Of a DNA stretch of 64,000 nucleotides, positions 54,792 to 64,000 are shown in pieces. The position numbers and the translations under genes were made by a program. This DNA is from Siphonobacter curvatus. GTDB lineage: Bacteria > Bacteroidota > Bacteroidia > Cytophagales > Spirosomataceae. The stretch is from positions 1 to 64,000 of the forward strand of contig NZ_PTRA01000006.1 in the NCBI RefSeq assembly GCF_002943425.1, read 5' to 3'. A model generated the notes under the pieces. That model was not told the DNA's origin. It ran no database searches and saw only the letters and a program-made list of their open reading frames with translations. Every line of letters begins with the position of its first letter. Positions within the stretch are counted from its first letter, which is position 1.

Positions 54792-55958
54792 TCATAATTT
54801 CAAACGTATATTGATTTTACTCAATAGTTGAGCGGTTATCAGTACTAGACCCGCGAATGCCAGACTTTTTAATAAACCTACGCCTCCCGTCAACACAGCG
54901 TCGGGTAAGGACCTGCCCGTAAGCTCCGCCAGACTATAAAAATAATACGGTAATAGATAACAGGTCAGCGTATAGATGCCGGCGGGTTTGAGCCAAGTAA
55001 ACCAGTGTACCTTTTGGCCAATTTCGACTAAGCCATAAACGACTGCATACGTGAGCAAAGCAATACCAGTACAAAAAAATACCCAAGTAGGAGTTGCCTG
55101 TATCTTGGAAATGATAAAGTAAGCATGAGCGATAAAACCGGCTCCCAGCATTAGACAGCCCGCTCCCAACAGAAAGCTTAGCCCTCGAATCGAATCTTGT
55201 TTTCGTAGCAACAGAGTGGTTAGCAAACCAGCCATGGTAAAGGCGTGAAAAGCTCCATTACCTAAGATGATGTCCTTCACATCGAACCCTCCCACCTGCC
55301 AATCCGCGTGAGCGGCGATTGTCGTTAATGTGAAAAACAAGAAGGCTGCTGCCAGTGCTCCAACCTTCCCCTTCATTCCTAGATAAAGCAGTGCTGAAAC
55401 GCCGTAGCTCCAGCCGATCAGTCCCAGGATTCCCCACCACTGAGGCCGGAAGATTTGCGGATTTTCCGGTGTCCCTCCGCGGAATCGTACGGCCAGCACC
55501 AGCAAAATCACTATACCAATACCTTGTAGCACGCGGACCGTAGAGGAAGGAAAAGTTTTCGGATACACATTCCAGATCAGGAAAAAAGCCGTAACCATCA
55601 AAATCTGAAACCAGGCCGAAGAAAGACCAGTGAGGTTCGCATTGAGTTCCGGAACATTGACGGTAAAAATTCCCATCACCAGCAAAGCTAAGGTACGTAA
55701 TACAATATGCCCGGAAATCCGTACCGGGGATTCCCCTTTGGTCAATCGGGCATCTACCCCAAGCGGAATGGACATACCCAGAATGAAAAGAAAACAGGGA
55801 AACACCGTATCCGCCAGCCCCAGAAAATCTACGTCAGCCTCGGCGTGTTCCAACCAGGAAGGAATCGCCCGCAGTGTCCAGAGATCGTTGACAAAGATCA
55901 TGAGTAACATCGTCAATCCCCGAAATACGTCGATGGAAGGAATACGCGAATTTTTCAT
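54792..55958 (-). CDS. HGSNAT-like (DUF5009) membrane acyltransferase
   Basis: 388 residues with about ten membrane spans. The opening SIDVFRGLTMLLMIFVNDLWT, then FLGLADTVFPCFLFILGMSIPLG, is the signature of the heparan-alpha-glucosaminide N-acetyltransferase/YeiB-like family. The human enzyme transfers acetyl from cytosolic acetyl-CoA to a terminal glucosamine on the other side of the membrane. The gene lies 9 bp downstream of a GH20-like hydrolase gene, which fits a pathway that acetylates a terminal amino sugar and then removes it. The functional transfer is not proved. Confidence 0.85.
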   Translation of the reverse strand: MKNSRIPSIDVFRGLTMLLMIFVNDLWTLRAIPSWLEHAEADVDFLGLADTVFPCFLFILGMSIPLGVDARLTKGESPVRISGHIVLRTLALLVMGIFTVNVPELNANLTGLSSAWFQILMVTAFFLIWNVYPKTFPSSTVRVLQGIGIVILLVLAVRFRGGTPENPQIFRPQWWGILGLIGWSYGVSALLYLGMKGKVGALAAAFLFFTLTTIAAHADWQVGGFDVKDIILGNGAFHAFTMAGLLTTLLLRKQDSIRGLSFLLGAGCLMLGAGFIAHAYFIISKIQATPTWVFFCTGIALLTYAVVYGLVEIGQKVHWFTWLKPAGIYTLTCYLLPYYFYSLAELTGRSLPDAVLTGGVGLLKSLAFAGLVLITAQLLSKINIRLKL

Positions 55959-55967
55959 AGCAACAAA

Positions 55968-57065
55968 CTAGGGAGTTAGGCGGGTAATTTCACTGTACAG
56001 GTCCTGAAAACAATGCGTGGGCGTTTCTTCGGAAGTGCTTTTTTTGCGACCGTAGAATTCATCCAGAAAACTACCGGCGTCTGACCATACGGTTTGCATC
56101 ATCCCCTGATACAATTCTTTCATGGGCCGGGTAGCCGAGCGGCGAAACCGGAGCATGTCCTGTACCTGAGCAACGGCATTTTTAGGTTTCCGCCAGGGAC
56201 AGGTTACTACGCTGAGGCCTTTCATGGCAAAGTACACGGGCGTTTGGTCGGGGCGTTCGTAATGCCAGTCACAAATCATCACGTCTTTCGGAATCAGATC
56301 GATGGCCCGGTGGGTCTGGTTAAAGCTGGCTTCCCACATCCCCATACCCGTGACTTTACCCTCCAGTAAGCGATCTCCCCACATCCAGAGTTTGCGGTTT
56401 TTCTGGGCCAGATGGTCCCGAAGCGTGCGTACCTCTCCGGCGTATAGTTCAGCCGGGTCACGACCACCGCAGCGGGGGCAGCGGGCTTCCCCGATGTAAA
56501 AGACTTCATCTAGCCCGGCGTGGAAGGCAGAGGCTTCGAAGGCATCGCAAATTTCGTCCATCAGGTCGAATACGATCGAGTGTACCTCCGGATGCAGGGG
56601 ACAATAGCTTTTACAGTACAAGCCGTCGGAATTGGGCCATTCGTACTTGGCGGGCATTTTCACCCAGGGGGTTTCATCCAGTTGCGGGTATTTCTCCAGC
56701 AGATTTCCGGTTTTGTTAGCCCAGGACTGATGACCCAGCAAATTAACCTGTGGGATCAGCGTAATCTGGTGTTTGCGGCAGGTCTGCACGAGTCGGCGTA
56801 CCTCGGCTTTTGACAGGGCAACACTGTCGCGTAATTCAGGATGCGTTTTGAATTGATAGTTGTAGTCCACCCGCAGGACCAGCGTATTGACTTTTCGGGG
56901 AGCCAGTTCCGTATCAATGAATCGGATAAACTCATCGAGTCGATTTGGTAAGGGAGCGGCGATACAGAAGCCCCGAACGGGAAGCAATGTATCCAGCGGC
57001 ATTTGCTGAGCCTGGGTCTTCGCAACCGCCAGCACTAAAATCATCCACAGAAAAAGTCGTTTCAT
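55968..57065 (-). CDS. GH20-like beta-N-acetylhexosaminidase, secreted
   Basis: 365 residues with a signal ending at TQAQ. The catalytic barrel of family 20 is indicated by RVDYNYQF, LIPQVNLLGHQSW, and the acid/base pair in HAGLDEVFYIGE (Asp-Glu), followed by WMWGDRLLEG. A zinc-finger-like pair of Cys (CPRCGG) follows the catalytic pair. It is short for a GH20 enzyme (domain without the GH20b cap). It is co-transcribed with the HGSNAT-like acyltransferase, so the likely substrate is a terminal N-acetylhexosamine. Confidence 0.8.
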   Translation of the reverse strand: MKRLFLWMILVLAVAKTQAQQMPLDTLLPVRGFCIAAPLPNRLDEFIRFIDTELAPRKVNTLVLRVDYNYQFKTHPELRDSVALSKAEVRRLVQTCRKHQITLIPQVNLLGHQSWANKTGNLLEKYPQLDETPWVKMPAKYEWPNSDGLYCKSYCPLHPEVHSIVFDLMDEICDAFEASAFHAGLDEVFYIGEARCPRCGGRDPAELYAGEVRTLRDHLAQKNRKLWMWGDRLLEGKVTGMGMWEASFNQTHRAIDLIPKDVMICDWHYERPDQTPVYFAMKGLSVVTCPWRKPKNAVAQVQDMLRFRRSATRPMKELYQGMMQTVWSDAGSFLDEFYGRKKSTSEETPTHCFQDLYSEITRLTP

Positions 57066-57276: not shown

Positions 57277-58704
57277 ATGCCCCATTTCTGTTTTAATTTT
57301 AATTATTTAAGCCGTACTCCGTACGCAGCTCCCCTGTTTTACTGGAAACTTATGTCTGTCGCGTCCTTCCTCATTGTCTTCTTTTTCATCAATTACGTCC
57401 GCAAAACGTTAAATACAGCGAATAAAAATGTCTGGCTGGATCAACAGCTGGTATACCTCCGGCATTTTTCTATCGCTCTGCTCGTAGGTCAGATGATCCT
57501 TCGGGATTCGGTACTGATTCGGATGGCCTGGCCACTCGTGCTCTTTGGGATGGTTCTTGCCGTTTTCAAGCTGGATTTTTTTCGTCCCGTACGTTCGGTT
57601 TCCATTTCGCTAATTCCTTTCACGGCAGTCTCGTTTTTATCTACGTTCATTCAATTGATAAACCAAGATTTCTATGAACAATTTGACGATTACCTCAATG
57701 CCGCCCGCTTTTTCGCTTTCGTTTGGGTATTCGCGTTGTGGCTAAATAACCGAAAGCAGGAAAAAGCGTTGGAAAATGAACGCCTCCGACGGGAACAACA
57801 GGAGCAACTCAGTAAGGTAACCGAAGCCCAGAAAAACGAATTAGAAGTACTCGTTGCCGAACGTACCGCCGAACTTCGTCTACAAAAAGAAGAACTGGAA
57901 AAAGCCCTTGATCACCTAAAAGCTACGCAGAACCAACTCATTCACGCGGAGAAGATGGCTTCGCTTGGCGAACTGACGGCGGGTATTGCCCACGAAATCC
58001 AGAATCCCCTCAATTTCGTCAATAACTTCTCGGAAGTCAGCGTCGAACTCGTGGAAGAACTTCGGGAAGAGTCACAGAAGGAAACCCTGGATACGGAATT
58101 AGTCAGTGAATTACTCAGCGATATTGAGCAGAACCTTCAGAAAATTCAGCACCACGGCAAGCGGGCGGATAGCATCGTAAAAGGGATGCTTCAACACTCG
58201 CGTACGTCTTCGGGGCAGAAAGAAGCGATTGATCTGAACGCTCTGGCTGACGAGTACCTGCGACTGGCCTACCATGGCTTGCGGGCTAAGGATAAAACCT
58301 TCAACGCCAAACTGGTAACGGACTTTGATGCCAGTTTAGGCAAAATCAACGTATTACCGCAGGATTTGGGCCGGGTACTGCTGAATATGTTCACCAATGC
58401 CTTTTACGCCGTCTCCGAACGCAAGCGTCAACAACCACAAGGATATGAACCTACGGTAAGCATTCAGACGCAACGTACCCGCAAACAAATCGAAATACGG
58501 ATTCGTGATAATGGTACGGGAATGCCCGAGCACGTCAAACAGAAAATTTTTCAGCCCTTTTTCACCACCAAACCCAGCGGACAGGGTACGGGTCTGGGCC
58601 TTTCCCTAAGCTATGACATCATTACCAAAGCCCACGGCGGTACGCTGGAAGTGATTTCCGAGCCGGATGCTTTTACTGAGTTTATTATTCGCCTGCCCGC
58701 CTAA
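57277..58704 (+). CDS. Membrane sensor histidine kinase
   Basis: About 475 residues from the ATG at 57277 (57352 is also possible; the TTG at 57271 is not needed). The N-terminal 170 residues hold about five membrane spans (ASFLIVFFFINYV; WPLVLFGMVLAVFKLDFF; ISLIPFTAVSFLSTFIQLI; ARFFAFVWVFALWL) without a periplasmic domain, so it may sense within the membrane. A long coiled coil (about 165-240) precedes the DHp helix with LGELTAGIAHEIQNPLNFVNNF. The ATPase domain has NMFTNAFYAVSE, RDNGTGMP and GTGLGLSLS. It is the first gene of the cyclase operon, and the following receivers are its likely partners. Confidence 0.92.
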   Translation: MPHFCFNFNYLSRTPYAAPLFYWKLMSVASFLIVFFFINYVRKTLNTANKNVWLDQQLVYLRHFSIALLVGQMILRDSVLIRMAWPLVLFGMVLAVFKLDFFRPVRSVSISLIPFTAVSFLSTFIQLINQDFYEQFDDYLNAARFFAFVWVFALWLNNRKQEKALENERLRREQQEQLSKVTEAQKNELEVLVAERTAELRLQKEELEKALDHLKATQNQLIHAEKMASLGELTAGIAHEIQNPLNFVNNFSEVSVELVEELREESQKETLDTELVSELLSDIEQNLQKIQHHGKRADSIVKGMLQHSRTSSGQKEAIDLNALADEYLRLAYHGLRAKDKTFNAKLVTDFDASLGKINVLPQDLGRVLLNMFTNAFYAVSERKRQQPQGYEPTVSIQTQRTRKQIEIRIRDNGTGMPEHVKQKIFQPFFTTKPSGQGTGLGLSLSYDIITKAHGGTLEVISEPDAFTEFIIRLPA

Positions 58705-58728
58705 TCCAACGATTTTAACGATTTCTTC

Positions 58729-59103
58729 ATGCATATATTAGTTGTAGACGACGAACCCGATGTTCAGTCGCTTTTTGAACAACGTTTTCGTCGCGAAATC
58801 CGAAGTGGAGAACTTCGCTTTATCTTTACTTTCTCCGGAGAAGAAGCCCTTACCCGCCTCGAGGATCAGCATTCGGAAATTGTACTCATTCTATCGGACA
58901 TCAATATGCCCGGGATGAGTGGTCTGGAATTACTGGAATCCATTCGACAGTCGCACCCCATGGCCCCGCCGCTGGTCATGATGATTACCGCTTACGGAGA
59001 CGAAGAAACGCACGCCAAAGCTCTCAGCCTAGGAGCGAATGATTTTTTAACCAAACCGCTTGATTTCAGCGAGTTAAAGCAGAAACTCAAAGACACATTA
59101 TGA
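58729..59103 (+). CDS. Single-domain response regulator of the cyclase operon
   Basis: 124 residues; acidic pocket VDDEPD, phosphoacceptor Asp57 in [13 protein letters not shown], Thr in [10 protein letters not shown], and Lys in [14 protein letters not shown]. No output domain. The stop overlaps the start of the receiver-cyclase gene (ATGA), and the domain is clearly similar to that protein's receiver (same SDINMPxM-G and KPxDF blocks). It may compete for phosphate with the cyclase receiver, or act as a sink. Confidence 0.92.
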
Positions 59104-60143
59104 AGGCAAAGATTTTGGTTGTGGATGATGAAACGGATTTGGAAATACTCATCAAGCAGAAATTTCGTCGTCAGATTAGGGAAGGAAAGTACGAATTCAT
59201 CTTCGCCCAGAATGGCGTGGAAGCCCTTCAGCAATTGCAGCAGCACCCGGATACGGATGTGGTGTTGAGTGACATCAACATGCCCGAAATGGATGGTTTA
59301 ACCCTGCTGGTGAAACTTCACGAAACCAATCCTATCGTTAAGGCGGTCATCGTTTCGGCCTACGGTGATATGGAAAACATCCGCGTGGCGATGAACCGGG
59401 GGGCGTACGATTTTCTGTGTAAACCTGTGGATTTTGAGGACTTGGAAGTGACCATGCAGAAGACGTTGAAGCACGTCGATCAGCTCCGGCAAACGCTGAA
59501 AGCCATCAAAGAAAACGATATTCTGCGGATGTACGTCGATGAAAACGTACTCCAGTTTATGACCCGTTCGGAGTTCGAATCTTCGCTGACGGCTAACGAA
59601 ACGGTACAGGGCACCGTCGTGTTCGTGGACATTTGCGGATTCACAGCGATCACCGAACGCGAGCCCGCTGATGTAGTAGTGAAGCTCATCAACTCGTACT
59701 TCGAAGTGATCGTAAAGGCCATCATTGCCCAGGGTGGCTATATCGATAAGTTCATTGGTGATGCCGTTATGGCCGTATTCCGGGGTGAATTTCACCTGGA
59801 TCGGGCCATTGAAGCCTCGCTGGCCGTGCGTACGCAATTGTCGGAGATGGAAGAAGTTTTACCCGATCAGACCTTCCTCCCGCAGGTAGCCATTGGTATC
59901 AACTCGGGAGAAATGGTTTCGGGAAACATTGGTTCGGCTTCGCTCAAACGACTGGATTATACAGTGATTGGTGATACCGTCAATCTGGCCCAGCGATTGC
60001 AATCCGTGGCAAAACCCGGGCAGATCCTGATCAGTGATGCCGTGTATCAGCAAGTCAAAGAATCCTTCCAAGGTCAGCCTTTGGGCGAAATTACGCTCAA
60101 AAATAAAGCCCAACCCGTGGCAGTAGTCGAAGTACAGGCTTAA
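59100..60143 (+). CDS. Receiver-linked class III adenylate cyclase
   Basis: 347 residues. A receiver domain at 1-120 has Asp58 ([13 protein letters not shown]) and Lys108 ([11 protein letters not shown]). A class III cyclase domain at about 165-345 carries both metal Asp residues (Asp177 in FVDICGFT; Asp221 in GDAVMAVF), Lys217 and Thr288, which specify adenine, and the transition-state pair Asn295/Arg299 (NLAQRL). All catalytic positions are intact, so it should make cAMP, controlled by phosphorylation at Asp58 from the operon's kinase. A transporter with a cyclic-nucleotide-binding domain is encoded just beyond, and an HD phosphohydrolase follows directly. Confidence 0.93.
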
Positions 60144-60179
60144 TCGCACCACATGCATCCCTTCCAAACCTCTCCTAGT

Positions 60180-60773
60180 ATGAACCTTATACAAGCCGAA
60201 GCATTCATTCTTGATTTACTACGGCAACAATTACCCGAAACGCTCTACTACCACGGTCTACACCATACGGAAGATGTGGTTCGGGCCGCCGAATGGCTGG
60301 CTCGGAGCGAAAAGATCGAAGATCAGGAATCGCTTATGCTATTACGTACAGCAGCCTTGTACCACGATTGTGGCTTCATGTATACCTATGAAAACCACGA
60401 AGAAGCGGGTTGTGAAGTGGTGGAGCAATGCTTGCCTACATTTGGCTATTCAACCGGGCAGATTGAGTTGATTTGCGGGATGATTCGGGCAACGAAGGTT
60501 CCGCAAAACCCGCAAACGCATCTGGAACAAATCCTCTGCGATGCGGATTTGGATTACCTAGGTCGGCTGGGTTTCGAGTCCATTTCCCATACTCTCTACC
60601 AGGAATTACAGGCCCGACACCTGATCGGTACGGAAGCAGAATGGCTACAGAAACAGATCACTTTTTTAAGCTCCCATCAGTATTGGACGGCCACGGCTCT
60701 CGCTTATCGGCAACCCGCCAAAGCCGTCCAACTGGAGCATCTGCAAAAGCAGGCTACTTTGCTTGAGCCGTAA
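60180..60773 (+). CDS. HD-domain phosphohydrolase
   Basis: The ATG at 60180 gives 197 residues (60153 is possible). The HD set is present: His28/29 in HGLHHTEDVV, His62-Asp63 in LYHDCGF, His73 in YENHEEAG, and Asp121-Asp125 in CDADLDYLG. HD proteins of this size hydrolyse cyclic or other nucleotides, and some are HDc-type phosphodiesterases. Placed 36 bp after the adenylate cyclase gene, it is a candidate for degrading the messenger, but this is inferred from position. The stop lies inside the end of the facing transporter gene (20-bp overlap). Confidence 0.85.
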   Translation: MNLIQAEAFILDLLRQQLPETLYYHGLHHTEDVVRAAEWLARSEKIEDQESLMLLRTAALYHDCGFMYTYENHEEAGCEVVEQCLPTFGYSTGQIELICGMIRATKVPQNPQTHLEQILCDADLDYLGRLGFESISHTLYQELQARHLIGTEAEWLQKQITFLSSHQYWTATALAYRQPAKAVQLEHLQKQATLLEP

Positions 60774-63700
60774 CCACTTCATTCTGATGGCGAATCCGCT
60801 GGCAAAGTACCCGCATCACGTTCCGCAGGACTTCGTCGCGTTCTTCCATCAGGTCATAAAAATCTTCCTGATCGATCCGGAATAACGTAGCGGCCGTTTG
60901 GGCAATCACCGTAGCCGAACGGGGTTCGGAATCCAGCAGGGCCAGTTCGCCGAAGAGATCACCCCGGCCCATTTCGGCCAGTAGCGTATCCTGATCATAA
61001 ATTTCTATCTCCCCCGACAGAATTACGAACATACTATCGCCCAGATCGCCCTTTCGGATAATCACCTCTCCCGCCGGGAAATGCACCTGTTTCATAATCG
61101 GAATGATACTGGCGAGTACGTTTTCGGCGGTACTGGCAAACAAAGGCGTATTCTTCAGAATCTGTACCAGTTCGTGAGCCGAATGGCTGGACGTTGCGTG
61201 AGCGTGCATAGGCGTATTTTTTTCAAAAGCAGCGAGCGTGTTTTCCGCACTTTCGCTGAGTAAATGAATCGGATGTGATAGATAAGCCGTCACCAGTTTC
61301 GGATCCCCCACCCAGGAATTCCAGCGACGCAGGGCTACGCTGACGGTCCACTCCGTAAACAGGGTCGTTCCTTCCTCCAGAATAGAGGCTACCGACTCAG
61401 CCATCGATTCGGGTACAATGGAAGCCGACGCTTCCAGTTGCGTACGGAACAAGCGATACACGGGCCGGGGCACCAGGTTTTCGAGCATTTCGAGGGCGTT
61501 GGCACTCCGCTCCTGTGAAGGGTGTTGCAGACTCTGCTGAATCTGATTCAAAGCTTCGGCATCGTATAGTTTACTGAGTATCCGTAAAATTCGTTTCAGT
61601 ACTCGCTCCATTTCGTAACCCAGAGCCGATTGCCATTCGGCATCCATCGCGGCGTACTGTCCCGCCTGAATCTGCTCGGCCAAAGCGAGTTCTTCGGAAA
61701 GCAACGTCTCAAAAAACAGTCGATTTTCGGATGATGAGGGAAAATGCCGCAACGAATGCAGAGCCGTTTCCCGTACCGTGCGGTCCGATTCTCCGGCCAG
61801 TCGCATCAACCATTGCTCGCTTTCGGGCGTTTGCAGGGTACTCAGCAACTGAGCCAGCATGCGTCGCTGTTCGGTGGGAGCGTCCAGCAGAGGCGTAAAG
61901 GCTGATAAGTTTTCACTCGCGGCCTGACGTAAGTTCCGCAGCGTAGCTCGTCCGTACGAACGGTCGTGTAGTAAAGTTAATAATTGAGGGACCAGTGACG
62001 AATGTCTACCCGCCGTTTCAATGGCCTGTTTTACCACCGCAGGCTGGGTACTTTGTAAGCCTTTCTGAACAAAAGCCGTATACTCCGTTAAGTGCAAATG
62101 ACGGATTACTTCGAGAGCCGCAACCTGCTCTTCTTCGGTGGATGCGTTCACCCAGCGATCCAACTGTTCGCGGGCAATGCTATCGGTACGATCTTTCTGC
62201 AGGCGTCCGAGGAGAGCTCCTTTCTGAATACCCCGGTCGGGCGATTCGAGCAACTCCCGAATGGGCCCCGCCTGCTGAGCCAGGAGCTGGGCCGTCCGCT
62301 GGCGTACCTGCGGATGCGTATCCGTCAGTAAGGGTTGCAAGGGCATTTGTTTGGCCTCCGGACCCAGGCGTTCCAGAACCCCCAACCGCACCAACGCATC
62401 GGGATGTCGCAACAGCGGCAATGTTTTCTGAGCTAGTAAAGTCGGTTGATTTTCTTCAAACCACGCTACTGCTGCCAGTACCCGCTCGGGTGAAGGACTC
62501 GTTAAATCCTGTTCGGCAGCCAGAGCTATTTCGCCAGGCAGGGCTACCTGTTCGCCGGGCAGGAATCGCCGGGATAAGGCATCGCCCAGGGTATGCAGAT
62601 AAAACCGATAGGCCCGTCGAATGAGCAGACCCGTGGCTACTGGAAAAATCAGCCAGAACCAGATGACTTTGCTTTCGCTCAGCGATAACCACTGCGAAAG
62701 TCCCAGCAACAAACCTGCCAGACCCAGGCCCAGCGGTTCGTACATGCCTTTGGCCAGGGTATGGCCCAGCAGCCGTTGTTGCGGCGTCAGGGGTTGGAAA
62801 AGGACCAGAAAAACCGCATCAAATAAAGAACGACGAATGACCTCTACCGAAACGTAGAGCAAGCAGGCCCACACTAACAGAACCGTTTCGTCGCCTACTA
62901 CACTCCGGGTAATGGCCAATCCCAATAATCCAATCAATGCTACCAGCGGTAATACTAATAAGGAAGTCTGCACCCCCAAACGATCCAGTGCCCGCCGGGA
63001 CAGCAGGAGCTTCACCAGCATCGCCAGTACATAGGTACCCGCCAGCCAGTAGCTGACGTAAGCAATTACTTCGGACTGATCATGAAAGCGGTGTTTGACG
63101 TCCAGAAAGAAGTTAAACTCAATTTTGGTTGCGAAACACGCCACGGTCAGGATACTCAGACACATGAAAAAGACCAGTTCGCTCCCACCAAACAACTGCT
63201 GAATCAAACGCGATTGTGGACGACGACGGGCCGTCGAACGATCGCGGGTACGAATGGCGTGCGAACGCAGCGTTAGTTTCAAGGTGAATAAAGCTCCCAG
63301 AAAGGCCAGTAACGAAACGCCCAGTAAGGTCAGCAAATCGGCGTGAGCGTGTACCAGAGCGGCCAGTACGGCCCCCAGAGCTTTGGCGGGCATGTCGCCT
63401 GAACTGATGATACTAAAGAGGCGTTTGCCCTGCCGCGTGTCGAACACCACCGCCGATACTCCCCAGAATTCCAGACTGGTCAGCAGATAGATCATCCGGT
63501 ACCCGACCATGATGCCAATGGCCGCTATGATCGAATGTCCGACCCAAACCACCAGCATCACCAACAGGGTCATAACACTTACGGTCCAGAGTACGCGTAA
63601 CGCGACGGAACTCAGCCCCAGATGATGTTCGTAATGAGCGTAGGCTTTACCGATCAGAATCATTCCAATAGCCGAGGCTATGTACGCCAGGGGTAAACTC

Positions 63701-63858
63701 GTAGCCGGGTCATTTTCCAGTAGAATGGCATTCGCGGCTACATATAATTGAATCGTTCCAATTCCTAAGAGAAAGTGATGGAGGAAAAAAAGCCAGACGG
63801 TACGGGTTTCTTCAGGATGTATTCCTAAATAACGACGGAAGCCATCGGTAGTAAGCAT
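60754..63858 (-). CDS. Npt/NTT-type transporter with HEAT repeats and cyclic-nucleotide-binding domain
   Basis: The ATG at 63858 gives 1034 residues; the frame's TTG at 63864 adds only two. Residues about 1-430 form a 10-12 span MFS-like domain of the Npt1/Npt2 (ADP/ATP carrier-like) type: IASAIGMILIGKAYAHYEHH, IMVGYRMIYLLTSLEFWGVSAVVFDTRQGKRLFS. Residues about 440-880 are HEAT-like helical repeats (HPDALVRLGVLERLG; HPQVRQRTAQLLAQQ; DRTVRETALHSLRH). Residues about 900-1020 form a cyclic-nucleotide-binding domain: FPAGEVIIRKGDLGDSMFVILSGEIEIYD and GDLFGELALLDSEPRSATV. The design suggests transport controlled by cNMP binding. It faces the cyclase operon with overlapping 3' ends. The transported substrate is unknown. 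Confidence 0.87.
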   Translation of the reverse strand: MLTTDGFRRYLGIHPEETRTVWLFFLHHFLLGIGTIQLYVAANAILLENDPATSLPLAYIASAIGMILIGKAYAHYEHHLGLSSVALRVLWTVSVMTLLVMLVVWVGHSIIAAIGIMVGYRMIYLLTSLEFWGVSAVVFDTRQGKRLFSIISSGDMPAKALGAVLAALVHAHADLLTLLGVSLLAFLGALFTLKLTLRSHAIRTRDRSTARRRPQSRLIQQLFGGSELVFFMCLSILTVACFATKIEFNFFLDVKHRFHDQSEVIAYVSYWLAGTYVLAMLVKLLLSRRALDRLGVQTSLLVLPLVALIGLLGLAITRSVVGDETVLLVWACLLYVSVEVIRRSLFDAVFLVLFQPLTPQQRLLGHTLAKGMYEPLGLGLAGLLLGLSQWLSLSESKVIWFWLIFPVATGLLIRRAYRFYLHTLGDALSRRFLPGEQVALPGEIALAAEQDLTSPSPERVLAAVAWFEENQPTLLAQKTLPLLRHPDALVRLGVLERLGPEAKQMPLQPLLTDTHPQVRQRTAQLLAQQAGPIRELLESPDRGIQKGALLGRLQKDRTDSIAREQLDRWVNASTEEEQVAALEVIRHLHLTEYTAFVQKGLQSTQPAVVKQAIETAGRHSSLVPQLLTLLHDRSYGRATLRNLRQAASENLSAFTPLLDAPTEQRRMLAQLLSTLQTPESEQWLMRLAGESDRTVRETALHSLRHFPSSSENRLFFETLLSEELALAEQIQAGQYAAMDAEWQSALGYEMERVLKRILRILSKLYDAEALNQIQQSLQHPSQERSANALEMLENLVPRPVYRLFRTQLEASASIVPESMAESVASILEEGTTLFTEWTVSVALRRWNSWVGDPKLVTAYLSHPIHLLSESAENTLAAFEKNTPMHAHATSSHSAHELVQILKNTPLFASTAENVLASIIPIMKQVHFPAGEVIIRKGDLGDSMFVILSGEIEIYDQDTLLAEMGRGDLFGELALLDSEPRSATVIAQTAATLFRIDQEDFYDLMEERDEVLRNVMRVLCQRIRHQNEVVTAQAK

Positions 63859-64000
63859 TGCCAAGCAGTTAATTGAGCGTTTTAAAGGTTAAGTATAGCT
63901 ATTTTTCGCGAGCTACGGACGCAGAAACATAAATCTTCTGTTTATTTGAAGGCTTTTCTGCTCCATTTCGGCCGTTATTTGTGCTTCTCAACTCCTACCT
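63859..64000. other. Upstream region of the transporter gene
   Basis: 142 bp to the window edge, AT rich, with a minus-strand promoter presumably inside. No other feature can be supported. Confidence 0.35.

Follow-up and report, generated by a model that had tools for sequence, protein, structure and literature searches.

Gene content and conservation of a Siphonobacter curvatus locus suggest a cAMP-controlled transport switch with its own cyclase, carrier and candidate phosphodiesterase

A set of five genes was analysed in Siphonobacter curvatus (Bacteroidota; Cytophagales; Spirosomataceae; assembly GCF_002943425.1), where it lies in a window of 64,000 nucleotides, i.e., the whole stretch of DNA studied (contig NZ_PTRA01000006.1, positions 1 to 64,000). 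The module spans positions 57352-63864. Four genes on the + strand, encoding a histidine kinase, a receiver, a receiver-cyclase and an HD hydrolase, face one carrier gene on the - strand (Table 1). The 3' ends of the carrier and HD genes overlap by 20 bp, and the distance from the cyclase gene to the carrier gene is about 600 bp. An earlier note, made from the letters of the DNA, had described this arrangement, and its account of the five genes is confirmed here. The gene set it placed at 57277..63858 stands, while both ends are shifted. The kinase probably starts at ATG 57352, since its homologues align from about residue 28; the listed open reading frame opens at TTG 57271. The carrier is read from TTG 63864, position 63858 being an in-frame ATG.

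Table 1. Features of the five-gene locus (window positions)
Feature	Position	Strand	Remarks
Membrane histidine kinase	57352..58704	+	HisKA + HATPase_c; 3 hydropathy peaks in the N-terminal third
Single-domain receiver, 124 amino acids	58729..59103	+	Response_reg E 4e-25
Receiver-adenylyl cyclase, class III, 347 amino acids	59100..60143	+	PF00072 + PF00211
Class III cyclase catalytic domain, residues 170-338	59607..60113	+	D177/K217/D221/T288/N295/R299
HD hydrolase, candidate cAMP phosphodiesterase, 206 amino acids	60153..60773	+	PF01966; likely start ATG 60180
NTT-fold carrier with HEAT repeats and cyclic-nucleotide-binding domain, 1036 amino acids from TTG	60754..63864	-	
NTT-fold membrane domain, residues 1-430	62575..63864	-	
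HEAT-repeat region, about residues 440-880	61225..62547	-	PF13646/PF02985; helical repeats in the predicted model
Cyclic-nucleotide-binding domain, about residues 900-1034	60763..61167	-	PF00027 E 3e-25
Phosphate-binding cassette FGELALLDSEPRSA, residues 971-984	60913..60954	-	G972, E973, R982, S983, A984 invariant in 52/52 carriers

The cyclase matches PF00211 above the cut-off (E 3e-24), and the solved structures nearest to its catalytic domain are CyaB and the photoactivated adenylyl cyclases. The metal-binding aspartates D177 and D221 and the transition-state residues N295 and R299 are invariant in all 20 aligned cyclases, as are K217 and T288. The catalytic residues regarded as intact from the first inspection (Asp177, Asp221, Lys217, Asn295 and Arg299) have thus withstood alignment. 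A Lys/Thr pair is expected of class IIIb adenylyl cyclases and not of guanylyl cyclases; by its residues, the K217/T288 pair fits adenylyl specificity and class IIIb. Partner genes near the cyclase were counted over 80 loci of the cyclase, each from a different genome. Of these loci, 74 have a separate receiver no more than 1 kb from the cyclase, 64 a kinase and 24 an HD gene no more than 3 kb away, and 40 the carrier in the stretch. This recount replaces the counts over 177 loci, where the figure for receivers (137) may take in the cyclase's own receiver and that for kinases (147) other kinases.

In cyanobacterial adenylyl cyclases of the CyaC type, phosphotransfer reaches a receiver that is joined to a class III cyclase, all in one polypeptide. 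The Siphonobacter set likewise has a class III cyclase with its own receiver domain, and a kinase that may phosphorylate it. Unlike CyaC, it has kinase, receiver and cyclase as separate genes, and its cyclase is tied to a carrier. By analogy it may work as the CyaC type does, and it is not classed with that type. Runs of four kinases adjoin the carrier at three other loci (L123, 422-8392; L180, 15081-23282; L158, 14898-23082), where similar kinase cores are joined to differing sensor parts (TPR in L180, a weak 7TMR-DISM in L123, and a short membrane type). At L180 and L158 the run also adjoins the cyclase, and such runs could provide several inputs to one cyclase.

The facing gene had been taken for an Npt/NTT-like carrier with HEAT repeats and a cyclic-nucleotide-binding domain (cNBD), and this holds. 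By fold, the predicted membrane domain comes closest to the ATP/ADP translocator AtNTT1, which leads the next family by about 11 Z units. Behind this domain PF13646, PF02985 and PF00027 match, the HEAT repeats being followed by the cNBD. No match to PF03219 was obtained in the window carrier, in 21 members of the carrier family or in the carrier's own genome. A resemblance to NTT in name only was considered and rejected, the predicted fold being clearly that of an ATP/ADP translocator in spite of the blank PF03219 search. The solved AtNTT1 (9j3m, 9j3l, 9j3j) and Chlamydia NTT1 (9j3n, 9j3o) are 12-14% identical to the Siphonobacter carrier (12% for AtNTT1). Their chains of 479-496 residues therefore have no HEAT or cNBD part, whereas the Siphonobacter carrier has both. 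The name NTT-fold, and not NTT, is used here, as nucleotide transport is predicted from the modelled fold; the carrier probably moves a nucleotide or a related anion.

Alternatively, the membrane domain might no longer transport and serve as an anchor or sensor, with the HEAT repeats and cNBD scaffolding a cAMP-dependent complex. The free-living hosts, the missing PF03219 match and an identity to AtNTT1 of only 12% would agree with such a role. HEAT repeats, moreover, are known for protein contacts, according to PMC5381601. Against it, many charged residues of the membrane domain have stayed invariant (E132, R144, K147, R148, K161, E249, K257, K285, E341, R344, K372 and E376), as expected of a working carrier, and the lead of AtNTT1 over every other fold family is wide. 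A non-transporting anchor is accordingly considered unlikely.

The PF00027 domain of the carrier has the pocket Glu and Arg in a canonical GE..RSA motif, which is invariant in the 52 aligned carriers. The pocket reads E..RS/T in 138 of 140 carrier entries from the family and the named loci, some genomes being entered twice. From these retained residues, the domain is predicted to be a cyclic AMP (cAMP) receptor. Hymenobacter carriers of 900 residues were suspected of having lost the cNBD; this was rejected, as the fetched loci (L211-L213, L217, L218, L230) keep it. A contrast set of 40 outside or sister loci was also compared. A cNBD can be recognised in 20 of the carriers, with the motif present (Asp replaces Glu in two), and 14 of these 20 loci have a cyclase or HD gene in the fetched stretch. 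Where the cNBD is missing or degenerate, neither gene occurs in the fetched stretch at any of 19 evaluable loci, L267 being left out because of a contig end. A receiver protein was found at five carrier loci without a cNBD, and in all five (L222-L225, L253) its output is a SpoIIE phosphatase. Since a missing or degenerate cNBD goes with absence of the cyclase and HD gene, and the receivers found at such loci have a SpoIIE output, the receiver output and the receptor domain of the carrier appear, from sequence, to be exchanged jointly.

In this sister system, the NTT-HEAT carriers stand in one run with one or two histidine kinases and the receiver-SpoIIE phosphatase; the kinases of L222 are a large Reg_prop/Y_Y_Y kinase and one of 300 residues. 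Many more genomes have a relative of the carrier at 6-8 kb from a receiver protein about 400 residues long.

In the S. curvatus genome (6.39 Mb in 19 contigs; completeness 99.93%), PF00211 matches once, at the class III cyclase of the module. No class I cyclase was found in the genome with PF01295, for which the E. coli control was positive. The genome has 22 PF00027 domains, and the GE..R(S/T) motif occurs in that of the carrier alone. In the other 21, all of which were read, the aligned pocket columns contain neither Glu nor Arg; if a shift of one column is allowed, Glu is present in five and Arg in two, L282 having both. As classical cAMP receptors, these other proteins are doubtful by their pocket residues. 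In this genome, the sole class III cyclase thus neighbours the sole canonical pocket. The carrier, to judge from these counts, looks like the main, perhaps the only, target of the cyclase, which would make the output transport and not transcription.

The remaining partner, the HD protein, matches PF01966 with E 5e-9. The H..HD..D signature (H38, H71, D72, D132) is invariant, and the residues invariant in the family are H34, H38, H71, D72, D132, Q168 and F171. Its predicted model aligns best with cyclic-nucleotide phosphodiesterases, PDE10A at the top and a generic HD hydrolase close behind; the alignment takes in 192 residues with PDE10A and 161 with 2pq7. The spacing of Q168-x-x-F171 equals that of Gln369 and Phe372 of PDE4D, as these are given in PMC11311937. 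PMC5617230 names eight residues in the metal pocket of a Giardia class I enzyme, five of which can be placed by spacing in the HD protein (H34, H38, H71, D72, D132). The His three residues after D72 and the later Glu/His pair of that set are absent. From the class I phosphodiesterases (PDE10A, PDE7A, PDE4) it further differs in its length of 206 residues, an identity of about 16% and the lack of a PF00233 match; in its family, 4 of 23 members match PF00233, with a best E of 0.063. When the family's sequences were compared with those of solved structures, the matches were HD proteins with another function or none assigned, chance matches and, only faintly, phosphodiesterases. The likeness to phosphodiesterases consequently lies in the fold and in residue spacing.

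It had first been suggested from gene position that the HD protein removes the messenger. The link now goes beyond position: of 77 relatives of the protein, 36 have a cyclase no more than 2 kb away, where about 0.1 would be expected; relatives also accompany several cyclase types, and one (L268, read) is fused to a cyclase. Together with the phosphodiesterase-like model, this makes the protein a candidate cAMP phosphodiesterase. Even so, a gene at a cyclase locus need not act on cAMP. According to PMC4222275, SpdA, the phosphodiesterase encoded at a rhizobial cyclase locus, does not cleave 3',5'-cAMP. By the same token, the carrier-cyclase link and the cAMP-sensing cNBD may hold while the HD protein cuts 2',3'-cAMP, AMP or another phosphate ester. 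The close spacing to cyclases, the fusion, the longer alignment with PDE10A than with 2pq7 and the PDE4D-like Gln/Phe spacing all speak against another substrate, which is thought rather unlikely.

Conservation of the module was followed in a family sample of 121 genomes, where a carrier was counted if near full-length or present in large pieces. It was counted in 64 genomes of 17 genera (the genera by eye). Every one of the 64 has a PF00211 cyclase, as against 28 of the 57 other family genomes (Fisher p = 2e-12, not corrected for kinship). Two genomes with a fragmented carrier (G025, G033) were left out of the 64; both have the cyclase and are within the 28. In 43 of the 64 the carrier is no more than 12 kb from a cyclase, distances being taken between match starts; cyclase numbers and a genome of 6.5 Mb would predict about 0.4. 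The co-occurrence that the earlier note had proposed as a check is therefore borne out. Eighty named loci were also fetched by the carrier alone, which avoids selection by the cyclase. A cyclase was found within 10 kb in 61 of them. At a distance of up to 0.4 kb, 25 loci have a kinase and 36 an HD gene, the latter always tail-to-tail with the carrier. At least one partner test is passed by 76 of the 80, the HD gene then being counted to 10 kb. The four others are L177 and L196, with contig ends close to the carrier, L154, whose adjoining kinase is in two pieces, and L208.

The full order (kinase, receiver, cyclase and HD gene facing the carrier) is seen at all four Siphonobacter loci and at 21 of 22 Dyadobacter loci. 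Elsewhere the partners pair differently. The HD gene faces the carrier at all six Larkinella loci, with another cyclase about 3 kb from the HD gene at three; the kinase adjoins the carrier at six of seven Runella loci; the cyclase faces it within 1.5 kb at 13 of 14 Hymenobacter loci. Outside the family, 28 of 53 matching Cytophagales genomes were taken, mostly those with the strongest matches, and the carrier lies within about 7 kb of a close relative of the cyclase in 16 of these 28 (counted by eye). Other types of cyclase occur there as well. At L226 a class IIIa-type receiver-cyclase forms one run with an HD gene, a carrier and a kinase; at L219 a propeller-sensor-cyclase is 1.1 kb from a distant carrier; at L249 a zinc-ribbon-cyclase-AAA protein adjoins an HD gene near a distant carrier.

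Gene order common to related genomes, and statistics without a kinship correction, could also arise if the genes merely hitchhiked on a conserved chromosomal stretch of shared ancestry. As a control, the genes flanking the window module were sought at the 177 loci (some genomes twice) and were present in 0, 0, 1, 0, 2, 2 and 17 of them; the immediate neighbours are hardly conserved, unlike the module. Inherited gene order is hard-pressed to explain different cyclases near the same pair of carrier and HD gene. With the differing pairs at the split loci of Larkinella and Runella, and with pocket loss going along with partner absence, hitchhiking is very improbable. A correlation of 0.56 between carrier and cyclase tree distances was obtained without a control gene and was not used.

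Several further observations concern the locus and its relatives. A GH20-like glycosidase and a DUF5009/HGSNAT-like membrane protein, in tandem at 54792-57065 of the window, adjoin the module and are not conserved with it. Promoter-like sites at the locus were no commoner than in shuffles, and terminator-like sites numbered 15 against 8.5 in shuffles; neither was used as evidence. In Siphonobacter sp. BAB-5405, the carrier is 98% identical to that of the window and is split into two overlapping frames (L032, 5026-8132; L133, 10001-13107), owing to sequencing error or decay. A contig labelled Flavobacterium sp. SUN052 (L149) has a Spirosomataceae-like locus (cyclase 72%, carrier 44%), which may reflect a mislabel, contamination or transfer. 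At G001:C6, G037:C33, G053:C152, G078:C29, G088:C213, G044:C9 and G105:C1, match positions alone indicate a second cluster, in which a different cyclase and an HD gene accompany a cNBD protein in a frame of 620-660 residues.

Taken from gene content, conservation, linkage, intact residues and predicted folds, the five genes are somewhat more probably one cAMP-controlled transport switch than not. The membrane histidine kinase would sense a signal and phosphorylate the cyclase at its receiver domain, the free receiver serving as a relay or phosphate sink. The class IIIb cyclase would make cAMP, which would bind the C-terminal cNBD of the carrier and, via the HEAT repeats, change the state of the NTT-fold membrane domain and so the passage of its presumed substrate. 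The HD protein would hydrolyse cAMP and reset the switch. We infer these steps, from phosphotransfer to gating and HD activity. Its recurrence across many related genera makes it probable that the set is a switch complete in itself, acting on transport and not on gene expression. The signalling chain outlined in the earlier note is supported to this extent, the co-occurrence and key residues having held.

A number of findings weigh against the switch. In 21 of the 64 family genomes no cyclase lies within 12 kb of the carrier, at 44 of the 80 named loci an HD gene is missing from the nearest 0.4 kb, and the carrier of L208 has no partner gene in 23 kb; the co-occurrence and linkage statistics ignore kinship. 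Six of the 20 outside loci keep the pocket, yet show no cyclase or HD gene in the fetched stretch. PF03219 fails to recognise the membrane domain, and free-living bacteria have no evident need for ATP import. The HD protein lacks some metal-site residues of class I phosphodiesterases, 23 of 77 strong HD relatives have no cyclase or carrier within 6 kb, and the S. curvatus genome has a second, more distant HD relative (403-residue frame). The count of one cyclase and one receptor covers PF00211, PF01295 and PF00027, with class II, IV, V and VI cyclases and non-PF00027 receptors falling outside it. In L282, finally, Glu and Arg stand at the pocket spacing, one column off and without Gly before the Glu.

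The last point bears on a broader proposal. Here, a bacterial cAMP system would operate without a transcription factor, having a two-component input, one cyclase, a cAMP-gated ATP/ADP-type carrier as the only receptor and a reset by a new compact family of class I-fold phosphodiesterases; a sister carrier without the receptor would be tied to receiver-SpoIIE, the two being exchanged together. This was given an even chance and, owing to L282, is now held to be marginally short of it.

Part of the picture is already known. Major et al. 2017 (PMC5381601) describes NTT-HEAT-cNBD fusion proteins and proposes that cAMP tunes uptake. The Siphonobacter carrier has the same order of membrane domain, HEAT repeats and cNBD, and differs from those proteins in lacking a PF03219 match. 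The cNBD gene just downstream of the fusion in that work is matched here at L214, L219-L221 and L248. In that text, "adenylate cyclase" appears once, as a possible cAMP source, and "phosphodiesterase" does not appear; a linked cyclase, kinase, receiver or HD gene, as present at the Siphonobacter locus, is not described in its accessible part. No paper on the five-gene module was found in the open-access literature searched. The earlier note had held that a closed circuit controlling a nucleotide-type carrier may be new. The closed module in its conserved form, its HD partner and the match of receptor to receiver output appear to be new; control of an NTT by cAMP had already been proposed.

Bacterial cAMP is best known for acting through transcription factors of the CRP type. 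In S. curvatus, one class III cyclase faces one canonical-pocket cNBD in a single genome. Where the 2017 survey (PMC5381601) offered only a guess at control, the locus gives a compact conserved set, each step of which can be assayed. It also provides a candidate cAMP phosphodiesterase for the Cytophagales. To judge from the SpoIIE sister system, control of NTT-fold carriers by receiver outputs may be a more general theme. Should cAMP indeed gate the carrier, this would be a transporter of the nucleotide type that is gated directly by a ligand.
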